Shown here piece after piece: positions 23,463-33,525 of a DNA stretch of 64,000 nt. Both the position numbers and the translations under genes were made by a program. This DNA comes from Actinomycetes bacterium (GTDB taxonomy: Bacteria; Actinomycetota; Acidimicrobiia; Spongiisociales; JAHEDJ01), in NCBI GenBank assembly GCA_024641245.1, contig JAHEDK010000005.1, forward strand, positions 1-64,000, written 5' to 3'. Under the pieces are notes generated by a model. That model was not told where the DNA came from, did not search any database, and saw nothing but the letters and a program-made list of their open reading frames with translations. How positions within the stretch are numbered: the stretch's first letter is position 1; every line of letters begins with the position of its first letter.

Positions 23463-23597
23463 GTGAAGAGCTTCGCGCAGCCCGGGAGGATCGCATAGGG
23501 GCTTCCTCCTCAGCCCCGTGTGACCGGGCCGCTTCCTAGACACCCGGATGCGCGCCGTCCAGTAGGATGCTGGCGAAACTCTCTAGAGGAGGCCCTT

Positions 23598-25556
23598 GTG
23601 CCATACGGATATGCGGGCAAGATCCTGCACGTCGACCTGACGTCGGGCTCACTCGAAGTCGAAGAACCACCGGAAGAGCTGTACCGGACCTACATGGGCG
23701 GCAGTGCCCTCGGCCTCTACTACCTGCTCAAGAACACTCCTGCCGGCGCAGATCCCTACGGGCCGGAGAACACGCTCGCCTTCATGTTGTCCGGCATCAC
23801 AGGTGCGCCGATCGCCGGTCAGAGCCGGGCCACCGTCGTCGCCAAGTCGCCGCTGACCGGTGGGGTCGGGGACAGCCAGGCCGGAGGCTTCTGGCCGGCC
23901 GAGCTGAAGTTCGCCGGATTCGACGGCATCGTTGTGCGCGGAATCTCTCCCAAGCCCGTCTACCTGTGGATCAATCAGGGCGAAGCAGAACTGCGCGATG
24001 CCGCACATCTCTGGGGAAGGATGACCGCCGAGACCGAAGAGATCCTGCAAGAGGAACTCGGGGACAACCGCATCCAGGTTGCCCAGATCGGGCCGGCCGG
24101 GGAGAACCTCGTCCGATTCGCCGCCATCATGAATATGGCAACCCGTGCCCACGGCCGAACCGGGATGGGCGCGGTGATGGGCAGCAAGAAGTTGAAAGCG
24201 ATCGTGGTTCGGGGCGGCAAGAAGAAACTGGCGATGGCCGATCCGGAGGGCGTCCGGGCGATAATGCAGCCTTCGATCCCGGCCATCCGGGAAGACGAGG
24301 ACGTATGGGAAATCGCCAAGTACGGAACCCTGGGAATCCTCGAGAGCCAGAACGCGGTGGGAGGGTTGCCGACCCGCAACTATCAGAGCGGTTGGATGGG
24401 CTTCGACCGGGCGGCCGCTATCGGTGGCGAGCGCCTCTTCAACGAACTTCTGCGCGGCGCCGATGAAGACAATCAACTCAAGCTGGGTCGCGAGACCTGT
24501 TACTCGTGTGCGGTTCGGTGTAAGCGAGTGGTCGACGCCGAGTGGCAGGGCCGGAAGGTCGACCCGAAGTCCGGAGGTCAGGAGTACGAAACCTCATCGG
24601 TCTTTGGCTCATACTGCGACATCGACGATATCCATGCCATTGGCTATGCGAATCAACTCTGCAACGAATACGGCGTGGACACGATTGCAGCGGGTGCGAC
24701 GATGGCCTTCGCCATCAATTGCTACGAGGATGGTCTGATCACGGCGGCCGACACCGGGGGCATCGAACTCGGGTGGGGAAAGGCCGAGGCCATGATCGCC
24801 ATGCTCGAGAAGACGCTCAATCGCGAAGGATTCGGTGACATCCTGGCGGAAGGCTCGGCGCGGGCCGGCGCACATATCGGCAACGGTGCAGAGGATCTGG
24901 TGATCGCGGTCAAGGGTGCCGAGCTTCCCGCCCACATGCCGCAGGTCAAACCGTCTCTGGCCTTGATCTACGCGGTGAACCCGTTCGGGGCCGACCACCA
25001 GTCCAGTGAGCACGATCCCAACTACACGCCTGAACTAGTTGCAGAGTCGCCGGAGAAGTACGGCAAGCGGGCGGCCGACATTGGCCTGACGAATCCTCAG
25101 CCGGAGGAAGCGCTCAACGCGGCCAAGGTCGAGTATGCGCTGATCACCCAGTATGCCTACTCGGCCTTGGACTCCGCAGACGTCTGTCAGTTCGTGTTCG
25201 GGCCGGGTTGGCAACTTCTCGGTATGGAGGAGTTGGCCGCGGTTATCACTGCAGTGCACGGTGAGGAGACGACGGTCGCCGACCTGTTGACACTGGGGGC
25301 TCGCCGCCTCAACATGCTGCGAGCCTTCAATGCCCGTGAAGGCATAACTCGTGAGCGGGACACTCTCCCCAAGCGATTGTTCGAACCGCTCGACGGTGGT
25401 CCCAGCGACGGCAAGGCGGTTGATCGGGTCGAATTCGAGGCAGCGCTCGAGACCTATTACGAGATGGCGGGCTGGGATCCAATCACGGGCAACCCGCCCA
25501 GAGAGACGCTGGAGAACCTCGATCTCGGCTGGGTCGCCGACGAACTCGGCGTGTAG
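23598..25556 (+). CDS. Aldehyde:ferredoxin oxidoreductase family protein (tungsten/molybdenum)
   Basis: 652 aa from GTG 23598; GAGGAGG ends 7 bases upstream. The N-terminal cofactor-binding domain (YGYAGKILHVDLTSGSLEVE, YMGGSALGLYYLL, HGRTGMGAVMGSKKLKAI) binds the bis-pterin metal. The 4Fe-4S cluster Cys are in CYSCAVRCKRVVD (C-x2-C-x3-C) and later DVCQFVFG. The enzyme oxidises aldehydes to acids with ferredoxin. The two MoeA-type genes immediately downstream support a pterin-metal enzyme. Length agrees with family members (600-650 aa). Confidence 0.92.
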   Translation: MPYGYAGKILHVDLTSGSLEVEEPPEELYRTYMGGSALGLYYLLKNTPAGADPYGPENTLAFMLSGITGAPIAGQSRATVVAKSPLTGGVGDSQAGGFWPAELKFAGFDGIVVRGISPKPVYLWINQGEAELRDAAHLWGRMTAETEEILQEELGDNRIQVAQIGPAGENLVRFAAIMNMATRAHGRTGMGAVMGSKKLKAIVVRGGKKKLAMADPEGVRAIMQPSIPAIREDEDVWEIAKYGTLGILESQNAVGGLPTRNYQSGWMGFDRAAAIGGERLFNELLRGADEDNQLKLGRETCYSCAVRCKRVVDAEWQGRKVDPKSGGQEYETSSVFGSYCDIDDIHAIGYANQLCNEYGVDTIAAGATMAFAINCYEDGLITAADTGGIELGWGKAEAMIAMLEKTLNREGFGDILAEGSARAGAHIGNGAEDLVIAVKGAELPAHMPQVKPSLALIYAVNPFGADHQSSEHDPNYTPELVAESPEKYGKRAADIGLTNPQPEEALNAAKVEYALITQYAYSALDSADVCQFVFGPGWQLLGMEELAAVITAVHGEETTVADLLTLGARRLNMLRAFNAREGITRERDTLPKRLFEPLDGGPSDGKAVDRVEFEAALETYYEMAGWDPITGNPPRETLENLDLGWVADELGV

Positions 25557-25619: not shown

Positions 25620-27128
25620 ATGTTGGCCACAGTCAGGCTCCCAAGCTCGCTCGACAAGTACGCCGGTGGGCGAAGGCTCATCGAGGTCACTGCCGCGACG
25701 GTCGACGGCGCCCTGCGGCAGGCGGTGGAGGCGCATCCCGATCTCCGCATCCGGCTCTTCGATGACTCGGGAGGATTGCACCCTCATCTGATGGTGTTCT
25801 GTCGCGATGCGGAAGTTCCCCGTCGGGACCTGGCGGCGACTGCGCTGGAGGAAGGCGATCAGGTCGATCTGTTGATCGCCATAGCCGGAGGTGCAGATGA
25901 CGTCCGCATGCGAGGGTTCCGTCAGAGGGCGAGCGTCGAAGAGGCGAGTTCGGCGGCTCTCGACGGCGTTGGTCCGCTGCTCGCCGAGCCAATTGGGGTG
26001 ACCGAGTGTGCCGGTCGGGTGCTGGCCGGCGACGTGCGGAGCGAGGTCAACGTACCCGGGTTCCGCCGGGCAACGATGGATGGTTTCTCCGTCCGCGCCG
26101 CCGACACTTTCGGGGCGTCTGCCTACAACCCGGTGATCCTGAATCTGGTCGGGCCATCGATGCCGGGGGTCTCGGCGACGGGTTTGATCGAGACCGGCGC
26201 CGCCGGACGGATCATGACGGGTGCGCCGGTCCCGGACGGCGCCGACGCGGTTTTGCGAGCCGAGGACGCCCTCGAAACGGATGGTCGCGTCGAGGTGCGG
26301 GCTCCCGTAGCCCCGGCGAAGAACGTAGGCAGGGTCGGAGAAGATGTCGAGATCGGGGCAACCGTGTTGAGCCGGGGGAGGCGACTGCTACCCCAGGACG
26401 CGGGGTTACTGGCGTCGATCGGACACCACCCCGTGCTCGTGCACCGGCGACCGGCGGTGAGGATAATCGTGTCAGGTGATGAGTTGCTTGCACCAGGTGA
26501 ACGCCCTGAAGGCTCGAAGATCGTCGACAGCAATTCTCCGATGCTTGCCGCGCTGGTACTTCGCGACGGTGGGTGTCCTGAGATCGTTCGGCTCCCGGAT
26601 GACGAGCAGGCGATGCGTGACGCGCTGAGCCGGGCAGGCGCGGATGTGATCGTAACGGCCGGTGCCGCCTCGGTCGGGACAGAGGACCGGGTGCCGGTGA
26701 TCGTCGATGAGTTGGGCGAACTCATTGTCCACGGTGTGGCAATGCGCCCCTCCTCGCCGACCGGGGTGGGCAGGATCGCCGGTATCCCGGTGCTTCTCCT
26801 GCCGGGCAATCCGGTTTCATGCCTGGTTGCGTACGACTTCTTCGCCGGACCGGTCATACGACGAATGGCAGGACTGCCGGAGAAGTGGCCCTATCCATCC
26901 GTCCAACTGCCGCTTGAACAGCGTCTCGTGTCACAGATCGGCCGCACCGACTACGCCAGGGTCCGGATCGAGAACGGTCGCGTTCGCCCGCTCGCCATCT
27001 CCGGTGCATCGGTTCTGTCCTCGGTAACCAGCGCTTCCGGTTTCGTGGTGGTTCCCGCCGGGTTGGAGGGCTATGCGCAGGGGACCGGAGTGGACGTATA
27101 CCTCTACGACCCGGCGCTCGTTCGATGA
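25620..27128 (+). CDS. MoaD-MoeA fusion protein
   Basis: 502 aa; GAGGA precedes the ATG. Residues 1-91 are a ubiquitin-like MoaD/ThiS domain (LATVRLPSSLDKYAGG, LRPH-like HPHLMVFCRDAEV, then VDLLIAIAGG with the Gly pair at 90-91). Residues 95-502 are MoeA (VTECAGRVLAGDV, RRATMDGFSVRAADT, RIMTGAPVPDGADAVLR, VSGDELLAPGE, LLLPGNPVSCLVAYD). MoaD normally carries the thiocarboxylate on a free C-terminal Gly-Gly for pterin dithiolene formation; MoeA inserts the metal. Here the Gly pair is internal. Some MoeA metal-site residues look altered (GAASVGTEDR in place of the usual GGxSxGxxD). It overlaps the next moeA-like gene. Confidence 0.8.
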   Translation: MLATVRLPSSLDKYAGGRRLIEVTAATVDGALRQAVEAHPDLRIRLFDDSGGLHPHLMVFCRDAEVPRRDLAATALEEGDQVDLLIAIAGGADDVRMRGFRQRASVEEASSAALDGVGPLLAEPIGVTECAGRVLAGDVRSEVNVPGFRRATMDGFSVRAADTFGASAYNPVILNLVGPSMPGVSATGLIETGAAGRIMTGAPVPDGADAVLRAEDALETDGRVEVRAPVAPAKNVGRVGEDVEIGATVLSRGRRLLPQDAGLLASIGHHPVLVHRRPAVRIIVSGDELLAPGERPEGSKIVDSNSPMLAALVLRDGGCPEIVRLPDDEQAMRDALSRAGADVIVTAGAASVGTEDRVPVIVDELGELIVHGVAMRPSSPTGVGRIAGIPVLLLPGNPVSCLVAYDFFAGPVIRRMAGLPEKWPYPSVQLPLEQRLVSQIGRTDYARVRIENGRVRPLAISGASVLSSVTSASGFVVVPAGLEGYAQGTGVDVYLYDPALVR

Positions 27129-29059
27129 GGCAGCGCCAGTTCCTCAATGTGGTCGATGAATCTGTAGCGCATCAGCGATTCAACGATGCCTGCGCGCATC
27201 TCGAGGCACGGACTGAGACCATCCGGTTGGAGTCGGCATTGGGGCGGGTGCTGGCCGGCGACGTCGTGGCGGCGGTCGATGTCACCGCCTTCGACAGGAG
27301 CAATGTGGACGGCTACGCGGTGCGGGCGCAGGACACGTTCGGGGCCGAGGAACTCGAACCGATCACGATGGCCGTCTCAGAAGTCGCCCTCGCAGCCGGC
27401 CAGGCGCCTCCTCCCGGGTTCGAGGTCGAGCCCGGCGTGGCGGTGGCTCTTGCCACCGGCGGGGTGGTTCCGCGCGGAGCAGATGCCGTGCTGATGGTGG
27501 AATACACCGAACCCGACGGGGACCGAATCCGGGTAGTCCGGCCGGCGGTCCCCGGCGGGAACATCACGTTTGCAGGATCCGACATCGGTCGCGGAGAGAC
27601 GGTGATGCGGCGGGGCACCCGGCTCAGTTCACGCGAGACCGGAGTGCTGGCGGCAGTTGGTGCCGACAGGCTGGAGGTGGTCGCCAGACCGCGAGTGGCG
27701 GTGGTGTCCACGGGCGATGAGATCGTTGAGCCGGGTCTGATGCTGGGCGCCGGCCAGGTGTACGACTCGAACCAGCGCATGTTGCTCGACGCCGTCATCG
27801 AACTCGGATGTGAGCCGGTGCCGTGCGGGATCATCCCGGACGACGAACCCCTCCTCGAGCAAGCCGTCGAGGGTTTGCTGTCCGGGCCGGAGGCGGTGGA
27901 CGTCGTGTTGCTGTCCGGCGGAACGTCGAAAGGCGAGGGCGACCTCAACGCCACGGTCGTCGAAGGATTGGCGCAGAGAATGCCGGATTCGGCCGGGATC
28001 GTCGTGCATGGGGTGGCCCTCAAACCGGGCAAGCCGGTGCTCCTCGCCGTCGTGGGCGGAGTCCCGGTGGTCGTGCTGCCGGGTTTCCCGACCTCGGCGA
28101 TCTTCACTTTTCACGAGTTCGTAGCTCCGTTGCTGCGTCGCCTGTCGGGCCTTCCCCCTCACGATCGATCGCTGGTGCAGGCCACGCTTCCGTTGCGGAT
28201 CACCTCAGCGTCGGGGCGAACGGAGTACAACCTGGTCGATTTGGTGCAAGGTCCGGTAGGCCTGGCCGCCTATCCGCTCGGTGCAGGGTCGGGCAGTGTG
28301 ACGGCATTCGGGCGCGCCGACGGCTTCATCCGAATTCCCGCAGCTACCGAGTATGTCGAGGGAGGGGCCGTTGTCGACGTTCATCTCCTCCATCCGGAGG
28401 TACGTCCCGCCGACCTCGCCGCCATCGGGAGCCACTGCATCGGTTTCGACTATCTGCTCGGGGTGCTGGCCGGGCGCGGTTATCGCGTGAAGATGGTGCC
28501 GGTCGGGTCTACGGGTGGGATCACCGCCGTCGGCCGGGGGGAGGCCGATGTGGCCGGAATCCACCTCATGGATCCAGAGACCGGTGAATACAACCGTCCG
28601 TTTCTGCCGCCGGGGGTGCGCCTCTTGTCGGGCTATCGGCGCCGGCAGGGACTCGTGTTCCGGTCCGGTGAGGTGGCGTGGGCGGAACTCGATGCAGAGG
28701 CTCTCGCGGCCGTACTGCGCGAGGGTCCGCATCGGATGGTCAACCGCAACCCGGGAAGCGGGACGCGGGTGCTCATCGATCAACTGCTCGGCGGGTGGCG
28801 ACCGGAGGGCTACCTCCATCAGGCCCGTACCCACCACTCGGTGGCAGCCGCCGTCGAGCAGGGGAGGGCGGATTGGGGCGTGACCCTCGATACCGTGGCG
28901 GGAAGGGCCGGCCTGGAGTTCCGGTTTCTTCTGGATGAACAGTATGACTTCGCCGTGCCGGAGTCGCGTTGGGAGAGGCCTGCGGTGGTGGCACTTCGGG
29001 AGCTGCTCGAAGATCCGACGATCATCGCGGAGTTGCTGGAGTTGGGCTTCCACCGCTAG
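27125..29059 (+). CDS. MoeA with C-terminal PBP-like domain
   Basis: 644 aa from ATG 27125 (ATGA overlap). Residues 1-405 are MoeA: SALGRVLAGDV, DRSNVDGYAVRAQDT, LATGGVVPRGADAVLMVEYT, VVSTGDEIV, LLSGGTSKGEGD and VLPGFPTSAIFTF, all in good order. From about residue 425, DYLLGVLAGRGYRVKMVPVGSTGG, then NPGSGTRVLIDQLLGG is the PBP-like domain often attached to MoeA in archaea and anaerobes, possibly an oxyanion or pterin sensor. It transfers molybdate or tungstate to molybdopterin. It lies in one operon with the AOR gene and the MoaD-MoeA fusion. Confidence 0.88.
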   Translation: MRQRQFLNVVDESVAHQRFNDACAHLEARTETIRLESALGRVLAGDVVAAVDVTAFDRSNVDGYAVRAQDTFGAEELEPITMAVSEVALAAGQAPPPGFEVEPGVAVALATGGVVPRGADAVLMVEYTEPDGDRIRVVRPAVPGGNITFAGSDIGRGETVMRRGTRLSSRETGVLAAVGADRLEVVARPRVAVVSTGDEIVEPGLMLGAGQVYDSNQRMLLDAVIELGCEPVPCGIIPDDEPLLEQAVEGLLSGPEAVDVVLLSGGTSKGEGDLNATVVEGLAQRMPDSAGIVVHGVALKPGKPVLLAVVGGVPVVVLPGFPTSAIFTFHEFVAPLLRRLSGLPPHDRSLVQATLPLRITSASGRTEYNLVDLVQGPVGLAAYPLGAGSGSVTAFGRADGFIRIPAATEYVEGGAVVDVHLLHPEVRPADLAAIGSHCIGFDYLLGVLAGRGYRVKMVPVGSTGGITAVGRGEADVAGIHLMDPETGEYNRPFLPPGVRLLSGYRRRQGLVFRSGEVAWAELDAEALAAVLREGPHRMVNRNPGSGTRVLIDQLLGGWRPEGYLHQARTHHSVAAAVEQGRADWGVTLDTVAGRAGLEFRFLLDEQYDFAVPESRWERPAVVALRELLEDPTIIAELLELGFHR

Positions 29060-29167: not shown

Positions 29168-29195
29168 CAGCCGGCTTCCTACATGAAGCCGGCTG
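29168..29195. terminator. Hairpin across the stop of the second AOR gene
   Basis: CAGCCGGCTTC (29168-29178) pairs perfectly with GAAGCCGGCTG (29185-29195). The TAG stop of the minus-strand gene lies in the loop. It probably ends or protects transcripts of the two convergent operons. Confidence 0.5.
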
Positions 29196-30993
29196 CTACC
29201 GCTCTCAGATCGAGGGTCTCGATCACCCGACTGCGCAACTGATCGAAGAATTCCTCGGTGTTGAACTGCGGCACCGTCGAGTGTTCGATTGGTCGGTGGG
29301 CGTCCGCAGGCATCGAGTAGTCGTCTGCCGCGAATCCGTGTTTCCGCTCGGAGGCGTAGCCGCGCAGGAACGTTCGGTCGACGGCGGCCAGCAAGTCGTC
29401 GGCCTCAACGTCGAGGCCGACGATCAACCGAATCGCGTCCGCCTCCAGATCGGGGCCGATCATCGAGAACTTACACAGCCCGGTGATGTCATCGAGGATG
29501 AACTTGGGCCCCCGATTGACCGTGGCATCGATCCAGTACTCGAGGTCGGTCTCTCGCTCGACGATCGCCAGAAGGTATGTGCGCATCGACATGTGACCTC
29601 CGGCCAGCGCCCACGGATAGGAGGGATTGGTGTGTGGCAGGTAGGCGGGGTACTCGACGCCCTTCGATTGCATGGCAAATGCCGTGGCCCCGCGTTGGAT
29701 TGACAGCCGCAAAGAGCCTTGCCCTATCTCTGGTAACCGTCCGGTTCCGACGGCTTCGATGGCTGCCCTGGTGGCAGCCACATCGCCGTAGCTGAGACCG
29801 TCGGCAAGGGGGGCATCGGGGTGGCGCAGATTCCACTCCATTGCGTATCCGATCGTTCCGCCGAGCGAGATGGAGTCCATCCCCAGTTCGTCGGAGAGAT
29901 CGATCAATGTCAAAGCGGCGTCGGCGTCGTAGATTCCCAGGTTGGAGGTGAGCAGGGCAAGGGGTTCGTAGTCGACCTTTGCCCGGAATGTCCCGGCCTC
30001 TCCGTCCGAGCGGTCGTAGACGTTTTTGTGGCATTTGATGCCGCAGAGGTAGCAGGCCTCCGCCTTGACGACATAGGGGCCTGCTTCGAAGGCGGGCCGG
30101 GTGAGGAGCTGTCCATCGTCGTTACCCGGAGGGGCGAAGTTGAACTCGGGGAGACCGCCGGCCGGATGGAGCATTCCGACCATGCGCCAGGTGCCGACGT
30201 CTCGATACCCCTTGCTCCCGTCTCCGAGGTTGATCTCCCGATTGATGTCTTTGAGGCCCCGGCTCGAAGCCTTCGGATTCGGACCGTCGGCTGCGATCGC
30301 CAGAAGGTTCTTCGAACCCATCACGCCGCCGTATCCGCCCCTTCCGCAGAAGCGGGGTTTGGCGTCTCCCGACTTCAACTGGTTATCGGTCGACAGCGCA
30401 ATCGACGCATACCGGACCGACTCATAGTTCTCTCCGGCCGGACCTATGACGGCGAAGTGCGCCTCCGGGTAGCGGTTGTGGAGCTCCTGTATCTTGTCGT
30501 TGACCCTGCGTCCGATGAGATCATCGGCGGCCAGGAAGGTGAATTCCGCCGGGCCGCCGGGTCCCGCCGGATCGGTGGCCGGGGTCAGGTGAATGAGCGT
30601 CGCCTGCTCACACCGACCGGTGAAGATGACTTCTTCGATGCCGAGGCCACGGAGTTTCGTGCCGAAGTGCCCCGATCCTGCCGACCACATGAGACCCGGC
30701 GCACCGGCCAGCGAGGTCTTGAGCGGGGAGTAGCCGTGGAAGAAGGTCCGCAGACCTGTCATCGCTCGTGTCCCGCTCAGCAGACCCAGGTTCATGACCA
30801 GCGGCGCGTCAGGTGCGTACGGATCGGTGACTTCGAGATCGCCCAGCAGTTTGGTGGCGCGGGCGATGCCACCGAGGGCGTCCTCGAGATCTTCGCAGGG
30901 GACGGATTCGAATCTGACGGTCCGGGTAGTGAGGTCCACGTGGTAGCGATTCACGGTGAAATCCGTAGCCGGTCGCAATGCGGTGGTCTCCAC
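29179..30993 (-). CDS. Aldehyde:ferredoxin oxidoreductase family protein (second copy)
   Basis: 604 aa from GTG 30993, 6 bases after GAGGAGGG. The N-terminal cofactor domain (YHVDLTTRTVRFE, FCGRGGYGGVMGSKNLLAIAADG) is followed by the cluster motif ACYLCGIKCHKNV (C-x2-C-x3-C) and a last Cys in GLCKFSM. It differs strongly from the copy at 23598, so the two are not a recent duplication. It starts 28 bases after the cDPG-synthetase-like gene, which follows the amidinotransferase, so it probably shares their TetR-type promoter at 33587. Likely role: oxidising the aldehyde made by a nearby transaminase. Confidence 0.88.
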   Translation of the reverse strand: METTALRPATDFTVNRYHVDLTTRTVRFESVPCEDLEDALGGIARATKLLGDLEVTDPYAPDAPLVMNLGLLSGTRAMTGLRTFFHGYSPLKTSLAGAPGLMWSAGSGHFGTKLRGLGIEEVIFTGRCEQATLIHLTPATDPAGPGGPAEFTFLAADDLIGRRVNDKIQELHNRYPEAHFAVIGPAGENYESVRYASIALSTDNQLKSGDAKPRFCGRGGYGGVMGSKNLLAIAADGPNPKASSRGLKDINREINLGDGSKGYRDVGTWRMVGMLHPAGGLPEFNFAPPGNDDGQLLTRPAFEAGPYVVKAEACYLCGIKCHKNVYDRSDGEAGTFRAKVDYEPLALLTSNLGIYDADAALTLIDLSDELGMDSISLGGTIGYAMEWNLRHPDAPLADGLSYGDVAATRAAIEAVGTGRLPEIGQGSLRLSIQRGATAFAMQSKGVEYPAYLPHTNPSYPWALAGGHMSMRTYLLAIVERETDLEYWIDATVNRGPKFILDDITGLCKFSMIGPDLEADAIRLIVGLDVEADDLLAAVDRTFLRGYASERKHGFAADDYSMPADAHRPIEHSTVPQFNTEEFFDQLRSRVIETLDLRAVAAGFM

Positions 30994-31021
30994 GCTGAAC
31001 CCTCCTCGAGATTCGTCGGCT

Positions 31022-32362
31022 TTATCCAAGCGCCTGCCCGGCGATGAACTCGTCGAGTACACCGGTCAGAGTCGGTTCTCCGATCTCCTGTAGATCGTAG
31101 AACACGCGCGTATTCGGCTTCTGAATATCGACGATGCGGGCAAGGTCGATGGGCGTTCCAATCACAACAGCGTCGCAATCCGTGGCGTTGATCGTGGCTT
31201 CGAGATCACGAAGCTGCTCTTCGCCGTATCCCATTGCGGGCAGGATGGTTCCGATGTCGGGGTAAGTGGCGAAAGTTTCCTTCAGCTTGCCGACCAGGTA
31301 GGGGCGCGGATCGACGAATTCGGTGGCGCCGTATTTGGTGGCGGCGACGACGGCTGCGCCGATCTTCATGCCGCCGTGTGTGAGGGTTGGACCGTCTTCG
31401 ATCGCCAGCACGCGCTTGCCGGCAACTACCGAAGGGTCTTCCAGCCGCATGGTCGAGGCTGCGTCGATGACCTTGGCGGACGGGTTCACCTTGGCGATGT
31501 TGGCCCGAACCGTTTCGATACCAGCGAGGTCGGCGGAGTCGATCTTGTTGATGATCACGACGTCGGCCGTGCGCAAGCTGACCTCGCCGGGGTAGTAGCG
31601 CAGCTCGTGTCCCGGCCGATGCGGGTCGGCAACGGTGATCGCCAGATCGGCCTCGTAGAACGAGAAGTCGTTGTTTCCGCCATCCCAGACGATCACATCG
31701 CAACCGTTGGGGTCTTCTTCTGCTGCTCGCAGGATCGCCTCGTAGTCGACGCCGGCGTAGATGACGTTGCCTCTCACGATGTGGGGTTCGTATTCCTCCA
31801 TCTCCTCGATCGTGCAGTTGTGCTTCTCGAGGTCGGCGATCTCGGCGAAGCGCTGGACTCTCTGAGCGGTGAGATCGCCGTACGGCATCGGGTGACGCAC
31901 GGCAACGACCTTTAGGCCTCTGGCCATGAGTGTCTCGACCACCTTGCGTGAGGTCTGTGACTTGCCGGATCCGGTTCGCACGGCGCACACGGAGATCACT
32001 GGTTTGGTGCTCTTCACTTGAGTGTCGCGCGGTCCCAGCAGAGTGAACGATGCCCCGGCCGCCTGTACGACGGCCGACACGCCCATTACGTGCTCGTAAG
32101 AAATGTCGCTGTAGGAGAAAGCACACTCGTCGGCGTCGAGGTCACGTATCAACATCGGCAGTTGTTCTTCAGCGTAGATCGGGATGCCATTCGGATAGAG
32201 TGGCCCGGCCAGCTCAGGCGGATAGGTTCGGCCCTCGATGCCTGGGATCTGTTCGGCCGTGAAGGCAACGACTTCGACTGATTCGTCGTCGCGGTAGTGG
32301 GTGTTGAAGTTGTGGAAATCGCGCCCTGCGGCGCCGATGATGATCACCTTGCGTTTGGCCAT
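31022..32362 (-). CDS. Cyclic 2,3-diphosphoglycerate synthetase-like P-loop NTPase
   Basis: 446 aa from ATG 32362 (AGGAGA upstream). The N-terminal Rossmann-like part (KRKVIIIGAAGRDFHNFN) is followed by a P-loop, ISVCAVRTGSGKSQTSRKV, then VIVWDGGNNDFSF, LRTADVVIINKID (an NKxD-like nucleotide-base motif) and VLAIEDGPTLTHGGM. This is the family named after the archaeal cyclic 2,3-diphosphoglycerate synthetase, but bacterial copies next to amino-acid genes have no proven reaction. The NKID motif resembles SIMIBI GTPases. It is co-transcribed with the amidinotransferase upstream. Confidence 0.8.
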   Translation of the reverse strand: MAKRKVIIIGAAGRDFHNFNTHYRDDESVEVVAFTAEQIPGIEGRTYPPELAGPLYPNGIPIYAEEQLPMLIRDLDADECAFSYSDISYEHVMGVSAVVQAAGASFTLLGPRDTQVKSTKPVISVCAVRTGSGKSQTSRKVVETLMARGLKVVAVRHPMPYGDLTAQRVQRFAEIADLEKHNCTIEEMEEYEPHIVRGNVIYAGVDYEAILRAAEEDPNGCDVIVWDGGNNDFSFYEADLAITVADPHRPGHELRYYPGEVSLRTADVVIINKIDSADLAGIETVRANIAKVNPSAKVIDAASTMRLEDPSVVAGKRVLAIEDGPTLTHGGMKIGAAVVAATKYGATEFVDPRPYLVGKLKETFATYPDIGTILPAMGYGEEQLRDLEATINATDCDAVVIGTPIDLARIVDIQKPNTRVFYDLQEIGEPTLTGVLDEFIAGQALG

Positions 32363-32391
32363 CTGATTCTCCTGCTTCTCGTGCGTGCTCG

Positions 32392-33525
32392 CTAGTAACC
32401 CGGAATCTGGCGGGGGAAGTAGTCCTGGAGTGTGCCTTCCCGATACACATCGGCCGTTGCGCAGTGGAGGCCACCACCGAACGGTCCGACGGCCCAGAAC
32501 GGCACCTCGATGACCTCGAAGCCGAGTTCGTAGAATTGCTGTTGCTGAGCCTTCTCCGATTCTTCGACGAAGATCGTGTGCTCGTCTAGGAGCAGAGTGT
32601 TCATCGACAACCAGACGCTGCAGAAACACAGCGGAGGTTTTTCCGGCAAGGCGGGTTCTGCGCATGGAACGATCTCCCAATCGTTCATGGCAAACAGCTG
32701 CTTCATCTCTTCGGTAAGGGGCACACGTTGCCGGTTGCTGAGGGCCAGGCCGGGCCGGAGGGGGATGAACGTGGCATCGATGTGCATCGGGTGCGCCTCG
32801 AGGAAGAGCACCTCGTGAAGTCTGTGCTCCGGGAAGTGCCGCCTGAGCCAATCGATACCGGCCCCGTTGGTGGCCGTCGACCGCTGTACGAACAGGTCCC
32901 TACCGAACCGGCCGACGTCGGCGGCATCGAAGAGAGGCTCTTCTTCGGTGAGGTTCCACTGCTTGTTCTTTGTGAAGCGTTCGATCTGTTCCGCGTCCGG
33001 GAGAGATTCGGCGTATTCCCAGAACTCCATGCCGTCCACGTAGGAAGCATCCGTCAGCCGCGGTTTCGGGGCAGCTTCCCAACGGAAGCCGGGATCCTCG
33101 CGGAAGTACTTCTGGAGGAGCGGACGGTAGGCGAGGTATTCGAACCAGCGAGAGCGCTGCGACATCGTGGCTTCGAGGATTTCGTTGCCGACGGTCAAGA
33201 GGATGTCGCGGGGTGGCATCACGCCGAACATGGAGTCCTGGGTCCAGTCGGGCGTGGTGACTGCCTGAGAGAAGTCGAGCACTTCCGGGCGGTCGACCGT
33301 TACACCGTGCTTCTCCAGGAGAGCAACGAAGTTGTCCAGTTGCTCGTTGGCGGCGTCCTCCATCTCCTGCGGAAGCCGGCCGAAAGTCCCCTTCGGGAAG
33401 CCCCACTTCGGCCAGTCACGGACTGTGGCGGGTTCGGGCGCCTGCACCATGGTGCCGTCCGCGCGCCCGACGATGACGCGCTTGAGCGGGTCCCACTCGG
33501 TCCACGAGTTCACGATCTTTGCCAC
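32392..33525 (-). CDS. Amidinotransferase family protein (glycine amidinotransferase-like)
   Basis: 377 aa from GTG 33525 (AGGAGG upstream). It matches arginine:glycine amidinotransferase through the five-bladed barrel: GRDLFVQRSTATNGAGIDWL with the catalytic Asp, PMHIDATFIPLRPG with the catalytic His, SMNTLLLDEHTIFVE and the catalytic Cys in FGGGLHCATADVYREGTLQ. The family moves the amidino group of arginine to an amine via a Cys-amidino intermediate. The acceptor is not readable from sequence. A 377-aa paralogue lies at 47439. It heads an operon with the cDPG-like NTPase and an AOR, divergent from an aminotransferase. Confidence 0.88.
   Translation of the reverse strand: MAKIVNSWTEWDPLKRVIVGRADGTMVQAPEPATVRDWPKWGFPKGTFGRLPQEMEDAANEQLDNFVALLEKHGVTVDRPEVLDFSQAVTTPDWTQDSMFGVMPPRDILLTVGNEILEATMSQRSRWFEYLAYRPLLQKYFREDPGFRWEAAPKPRLTDASYVDGMEFWEYAESLPDAEQIERFTKNKQWNLTEEEPLFDAADVGRFGRDLFVQRSTATNGAGIDWLRRHFPEHRLHEVLFLEAHPMHIDATFIPLRPGLALSNRQRVPLTEEMKQLFAMNDWEIVPCAEPALPEKPPLCFCSVWLSMNTLLLDEHTIFVEESEKAQQQQFYELGFEVIEVPFWAVGPFGGGLHCATADVYREGTLQDYFPRQIPGY

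Follow-up and report, generated by a model that had tools for sequence, protein, structure and literature searches.

A MoaD-type sulfur-carrier domain fused in front of an atypical MoeA beside aldehyde ferredoxin oxidoreductase genes in Acidimicrobiia: a putative cleavable precursor

Analysis of a 64,000-nucleotide stretch of an Acidimicrobiia genome (the window; it lies on contig C52, the genome measuring 2.70 Mb at 87.6% completeness) identified a gene in which a MoaD-type, ubiquitin-like domain is joined to a MoeA, and this fusion is real and conserved. The gene is a single open frame at positions 25620-27128 of the forward strand, running from ATG through stop and encoding 502 amino acids; as the related genome G002 has I in place of M where the ATG lies, the start codon may instead be TTG 25623. 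The initial annotation had placed a MoaD domain ahead of MoeA in one frame with a Gly pair at residues 90-91 directly before the MoeA, and both statements are borne out: Gly90-Gly91 are encoded by GGA GGT (25887-25892), followed in frame by ADDVRMRGF and MoeA, and the same frame with its glycine pair recurs in 16 aligned loci. An assembly or frame artefact was ruled out, the fusion being found in 16 distinct loci from two phyla. As MoeA continues in frame, the encoded carrier has no free C-terminal Gly-Gly, and carrier-like working would thus require cutting. The reading that we prefer over permanent docking, with a modest degree of confidence, is that the gene would encode a precursor cut after Gly91, freeing a dedicated sulfur carrier for cofactor maturation in the neighbouring aldehyde ferredoxin oxidoreductases (AOR).

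Profile searches of the carrier domain (residues 1-91; 25620-25892, forward strand) gave a Pfam ThiS match to the whole protein at 0.0013 and 19.7 bits, below the cut-off of 22.5, which rose above that cut-off (24.6 bits) when residues 1-91 were scanned alone; the NCBIfam model SAMP1 matched residues 1-91 at 2.8e-11 and 43.8 bits, below its equivalog cut-off of 60, and moaD_arch matched the domain at 23.6 bits, below its cut-off of 49.5. AlphaFold2 predicted beta-grasp strands and helices in residues 1-86 of the whole chain (26 rows, pLDDT 88.6) and again in the domain alone (13 rows, pLDDT 93.6, pTM 0.84), so that the ubiquitin-like fold on which the initial annotation had made its case depend is predicted by both models. 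In the whole chain the pLDDT drops below 50 at residues 88-93, as in a disordered join. The fold neighbours of the domain in the PDB are SAMP1, CysO, Urm1 and MoaD, with Foldseek values for the carrier model of 8.0e-9 for SAMP1 (3po0), 8.7e-8 for CysO (3dwg, which we take to be Rv1335) and 6.9e-4 for E. coli MoaD (1fm0); among profile matches were CysO (1.2e-15), 4n6e_B, the CysO of the BexX/CysO complex (1.7e-15), and SAMP1 (2.3e-10). By fold and by profile the domain is closer to the CysO/SAMP1 type than to E. coli MoaD. The name MoaD is thus right as to the sulfur-carrier fold, but CysO/SAMP1-type beta-grasp carrier describes the domain better.

The second half of the protein (residues 95-502 and stop; 25902-27128, forward strand) belongs to a MoeA subfamily, MoeA1. 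Pfam MoeA_N (8.5e-40), MoCF_biosynth (1.3e-23) and MoeA_C (3.3e-12) all score above cut-off and assign residues 105-495 to MoeA; domains I-IV are present, with the MoeA fold. The catalytic acidic residues and threonine D59, T100, D142, E188, D228 and D259 (E. coli numbers; D259 is a position that we take to be catalytic) are conserved in all 16 fusions, and the idea of a degenerate MoeA was dropped because these acidic residues are intact. E. coli K275 and K282, presumably the key lysines together with K279, are replaced by G (all 16) and by S (14) or A (two), respectively, and K279 by R throughout, while S371 is A in all 15 fusions with the residue present. The archaeal MoeA 1uz5 is likewise without the first two of these three lysines in the order K275, K279, K282, and their loss does not, therefore, by itself exclude MoeA activity. 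In the alignment RPSSP (residues 376-380; 26745-26759, forward strand) replaces KPGKP, which is retained in the adjoining MoeA-PBP described below. The NCBIfam models Glp (292 bits, cut-off 475) and MoeA_actino (246 bits, cut-off 560) both fall short on the fused MoeA; the label MoeA holds for the domains, but the subfamily is an atypical rather than an ordinary one. By analogy with the tungsten-biased MoeA of M. extorquens, as it appears in the available text of PMC13197769, it is plausible that the MoeA1 half is a specialised insertase.

The AOR context named in the initial annotation is present on both sides of the fusion. Upstream lies AOR1, an aldehyde ferredoxin oxidoreductase (23520-25556, forward strand; AFOR_N 1.2e-76, AFOR_C 1.2e-109), the true start of which is probably inside the annotated frame near residue 26, as relatives align from about residue 15-30. 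Downstream, and overlapping the stop of the fusion, is MoeA-PBP, a MoeA fused to a periplasmic-binding-protein-like domain (27125-29059, forward strand; PBP_like 2.7e-44, MoeA domains, NF011068 688 bits, above cut-off), and convergent with this operon is AOR2, a second, divergent AOR (29179-31062, reverse strand; AFOR_N 6.7e-37, AFOR_C 1.7e-38) with about 23-27% identity to AOR1 in tblastn searches of relatives. Beside AOR2, a frame at 31022-32851 of the reverse strand gives a weak CobW match just above cut-off and overlaps an arginine-deiminase-like gene; synteny with G002, G003 and G004 extends from this frame as far as 36079.

The spread of the fusion was surveyed in 138 genomes of the order (Acidimicrobiia), using matches to the MoeA subfamily at E <=1e-120 and scoring the fusion state by query span. 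MoeA1 was found in 25 of these, of which 13 are fused, 11 unfused and one cut at a contig end. A separate search of genome contigs, of which the best 80 loci were used, added at least four fused records from Planctomycetota (L051, L055, L068, L076), and unfused relatives occur there in Planctomycetota, Myxococcota and other groups, so that the search for further MoaD-MoeA fusions proposed in the initial annotation did find them; among viral contigs, none of 24 pattern matches was a relative of the fusion. Sixteen distinct fused loci make up the detailed set, with each of the genus's five genomes and the four Planctomycetota records represented; one further fused genome (G311) and a locus cut at a contig end (L136 of G285) were left out of the alignment, and duplicate copies of genomes were counted once. 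A tree built from 42 MoeA rows unites all 16 of the fused members with 10 unfused ones in a single clade (100/99), on which the fused or unfused label changes five times, four of them forced by starred branches, with several inner branches being weak. Because every row outside the clade is unfused, these sequences suggest one fusion followed by about four losses or splits as the simplest history, the tree alone being unable to separate gain from loss. In two unfused loci (L048:8001-8045 and L053:2700-2740) a few codons, LIGGA(D/E)DVRM, stand directly after the AOR1 stop and before MoeA1; they look like a deletion scar of the carrier domain.

MoeA-PBP is the next gene downstream in every locus of the clade, fused or unfused, where the contig continues, and is not seen at the MoeA1 loci L063, L066 and L067 outside the clade. 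At L053:3962-5220 the gene is broken into two parts separated by a few bases, possibly through a frameshift or an assembly error. A local AOR2 accompanies 11 of 14 fused loci as against none of six unfused clade loci with enough flank (one-sided Fisher 0.002, calculated by hand on rows which are not independent), whereas a local AOR1 is present at 7/13 fused and 8/9 unfused loci; at these loci the carrier thus tracks AOR2 and not AOR1.

The glycine pair, the presumed cleavage site, is present at the carrier end in 16/16 aligned fusions, with codons that vary synonymously. Among 90 carrier columns only Pro8, Gly90 and Gly91 are invariant, a result unchanged when three free relatives are added, and a chance Gly-Gly was ruled out, the odds that two named columns both fall among three invariant ones in 90 being 3/4005 (calculated by hand). 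The linker behind it ranges from three residues to more than 30: it is mostly of three (ADD, AED, AHD, SDD), of four in some fusions (GHDD, AHDD, SGDD), and carries long insertions in L068 and L055. The residue right after the pair is always small (A in 12, S in three, G in one). The linker leads into (D)VRMRGF or a close variant of it (with ADD at 25893-25919 of the forward strand in the window), and as unfused members open with the same motif, this is the old MoeA start, in front of which the carrier was joined. In three close pairs dN/dS is 0.19, 0.19 and 0.30 for the carrier and 0.12, 0.13 and 0.15 for the MoeA part; the carrier domain is held by purifying selection and evolves faster than MoeA.

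Close relatives of the fused carrier exist as separate genes. In a tree of 32 carriers the 16 fused domains and three separate genes form one clade (96/96), apart from the clades of JAMM-linked CysO-like carriers, of a further copy in the same genome as the fusion (contig C25) and of canonical MoaD. The three free genes lie within 35 bases of AOR2 and convergent with it (L161:1289-3371, L162:358-2461, L030:9083-11151); two end in VDGG* (G038 C54 and G263 C56) and the third in GGAPT* (G255 C154), and G263 holds one fused and one free copy. At the C25 locus (L031:8005-9413) a BNR-repeat gene is followed by the separate, GG-ending carrier, of a clade also present in other families of the order. 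Only two of 18 genomes, G001 and G003, have in addition a short GG-ending carrier beside a gene which by eye we take to be TtuA-like (L187:1501-1878, L190:1501-1761).

A second type of fusion involves the canonical-type MoaD itself. The gene at C26:63928 (L001:1489-2502), a PF02597 match with TIGR01687 (9.9e-13) and TIGR01682 (3.5e-12) both below cut-off, has its GG directly followed by a 259-aa tail with TM-like stretches; this membrane-like tail matched no Pfam family. The arrangement recurs in 14 of 14 loci, one per genome, as PPVSGG followed by A, S or T and by a tail of 251-262 aa with 6-8 hydrophobic windows. With this gene and the C25 carrier also present, the idea that the fused carrier is the sole MoaD of its genome was dropped; a 'ThiS-ThiG' identity for 345-aa frames was rejected. 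In G002 (97% complete, MoaE present) three queries at E <=0.01 detected no free carrier but only the two fusions, so that MPT synthesis in this genome, should it occur, would require the freeing of a carrier end, barring a carrier that escaped the searches. Among the indirect arguments that a release step operates generally, this is the strongest.

Candidate genes for release and activation are present elsewhere in the genome of the window. A Prok-JAB (JAMM) gene at C32:50616 (4.3e-23) carries the motif HSHTGSAAFPSSID and matches a desampylase model at 1.5e-20 and 73 bits, below the cut-off of 130. JAMM genes were found in 15 of the 18 genomes searched, including 10/10 of those at least 90% complete, and the HxHx7SxxD motif is intact in 16/16 JAMM loci; of the three genomes in which none was found, two carry the fusion (G004 and G041, 56% and 69% complete). 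The genome also encodes MoaE, found in 15/18 genomes (as a fragment in G041), and one strong E1 of ThiF plus rhodanese (MoeZR-like).

From what was observed, that is the fusion and its conservation, the predicted fold, the invariant glycine pair, the free relatives and the JAMM, E1 and MoaE genes, we infer the cleavage, the activation, the sulfur recipient and the metal as follows. The fusion gene would yield a precursor in which the ubiquitin-like carrier is translated ahead of a specialised MoeA; a protease of the JAMM type, encoded elsewhere, would cut after Gly91; the MoeZR-like E1 would activate the freed Gly-Gly end; the activated carrier would supply the sulfur with which the pterin cofactor of the AOR enzymes encoded alongside is made or matured; and the MoeA half, together with MoeA-PBP, would insert the metal, probably tungsten. 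Of the two explanations offered in the initial annotation, cleavage or docking, the former is the better supported, because the glycine pair is invariant while the linker varies, relatives exist as free carriers, the genome encodes a JAMM protein with an intact motif, and MoaX and DR2607 provide published precedents.

However, several points count against cleavage. The JAMM gene lies outside the fusion operon, and in four genomes it stands beside a different, CysO-like carrier (L164:3093-3826 in G263, G038 C2, G243 C19, G280 C267), which may be its real substrate; around the JAMM gene of the window's own genome no CysO gene was seen by eye. In G263 the frame of this JAMM-adjacent carrier continues past its GG (GGDEGAG...) into a longer protein, which may be a carrier fusion of a third kind. 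The fusion-bearing genomes G280 and G263 yielded no MoaE, and no carrier of the fused clade was found in six of 18 genomes searched (all five searched of genus g36, and G285) where MoeA1 or a piece of it is present, which makes the carrier dispensable for MoeA1. Furthermore, HvJAMM1 does not require a diglycine in linear fusions, according to the text available of PMC8832034, and cutting alone would thus not demand the pair, which may be kept as a hinge.

The second explanation, that the carrier remains uncut and, without carrying sulfur, directs MoeA1 towards the AOR apoprotein, MoaE or the E1, we regard as unlikely. Fusion partners are usually functional partners, the carrier tracks AOR2 as counted above, and MoaD-like genes whose role is unknown also occur in other AOR operons (PMC6365974, PMC1779556, in the parts available); against docking stand the invariant glycine pair in an otherwise poorly conserved domain, the relatives that exist as separate proteins with ends free or nearly free, and the loss of the domain about four times. 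Those losses tell also against an attached carrier which blocks MoeA1 until a cut acts as the switch, an idea of low probability drawn by analogy with Haloferax, where MPT synthase is blocked by SAMP1 attached to MoaE until HvJAMM1 takes the SAMP1 off (accessible text of PMC4443979): the modelled disordered join would be accessible to a protease, but the unfused MoeA1 of four sublineages would lack the regulation and no inhibition site is predicted. Still less probable is an idle remnant that lost its carrier function after fusion and kept the pair merely as a flexible hinge. The domain has been lost in several lineages and evolves faster than MoeA (48-53% against 72-74% identity with three genus mates), yet its dN/dS of 0.19-0.30, intact predicted fold and glycine pair, the most conserved pair across Acidimicrobiia and Planctomycetota, argue otherwise, and a mere hinge would be expected to accept other small residues. 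Hardly credible, finally, is a second start at Met97 with the glycine codons as ribosome site: the window has GGAGG 16 bases upstream of ATG 25908, RM is conserved in fused and unfused forms, and L048 and L053 may begin at this position after deletion, but the spacing is long, GGAGG is shared by L122, L024 and L043 only (L047 has GGGGG), and the carrier end would be left unfreed.

A broader extension of the cleavage reading is put forward tentatively and is rather doubtful as a whole: MoaD-type carriers would be made here as ubiquitin-like precursors, one on MoeA and the canonical one on a membrane protein, both freed by JAMM at the glycine pair as ubiquitin is, with the MoeA-fused carrier serving the divergent AOR2 in a sulfur branch of its own, since the carrier, fused or free, adjoins AOR2 and is missing where no AOR2 is seen. 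Sulfur transfer and metal insertion are consecutive steps on the way to the pterin cofactor and, if cut, the fusion would be a bacterial ubiquitin-like precursor whose partner is a downstream enzyme. It also offers a handle on the role of MoaD-like genes in tungsten AOR operons; as fused, free and carrier-less relatives occur side by side in one order, the role of the carrier can be tested by comparison.

The open-licence PMC literature yielded no published description of a MoaD-MoeA fusion: the term MoaD is absent from a paper on MoeA evolution (PMC11733289) and the fusion from the available part of PMC6147048. The architecture is apparently undescribed so far, the related known fusions being MoaX, DR2607 and MoaD-MoeB. 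MoaD-MoaE and MoaD-MoeB fusions of Archaea and some bacteria are likewise lineage-specific MoaD fusions within the pathway; the portion available of the paper describing them (PMC11237513) includes no MoaD-MoeA, and MoeA features there with splits and a periplasmic-domain extension. MoaX, the M. tuberculosis MoaD-MoaE fusion, is cut between Gly82 and Ser83, cutting being needed for function, by a protease called unidentified in the text available (PMC4326299); like the window fusion it has the carrier first, an internal GG and a partner from the same pathway, but that partner is MoaE of MPT synthase and not a metal insertase. In Deinococcus the MoaD-MoaE fusion DR2607 is cut by DRJAMM (DR0402), as far as the available text of PMC8832034 describes it; here too a carrier occurs naturally in a linear fusion, from which a JAMM protease releases it, but its partner is again MoaE, and for the window fusion such cutting is proposed. 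Of the solved carriers, CysO (3DWG) and SAMP1 (3PO0) come closest both in profile and in fold (TM about 0.84-0.85); unlike the fused carrier they are free proteins, and the JAMM-linked CysO-like carriers belong to a clade distinct from the fused one. The archaeal-type MoeA1 termed MoeA-PBP, proposed as a tungsten insertase linked to TupA in the parts available of PMC11733289, is of the same type as the next gene downstream in the window, whereas the fused MoeA is of another subfamily, without PBP and with RPSSP. In the AOR operons with MoaD-like genes, as given in the available sections of PMC1779556 and PMC6365974, the carrier of Aromatoleum (aorD/aorE) is a separate gene and that of Azoarcus sits at the AOR C-terminus, unlike in the window; in these bacteria also, a MoaD-like carrier is tied to a tungsten AOR.
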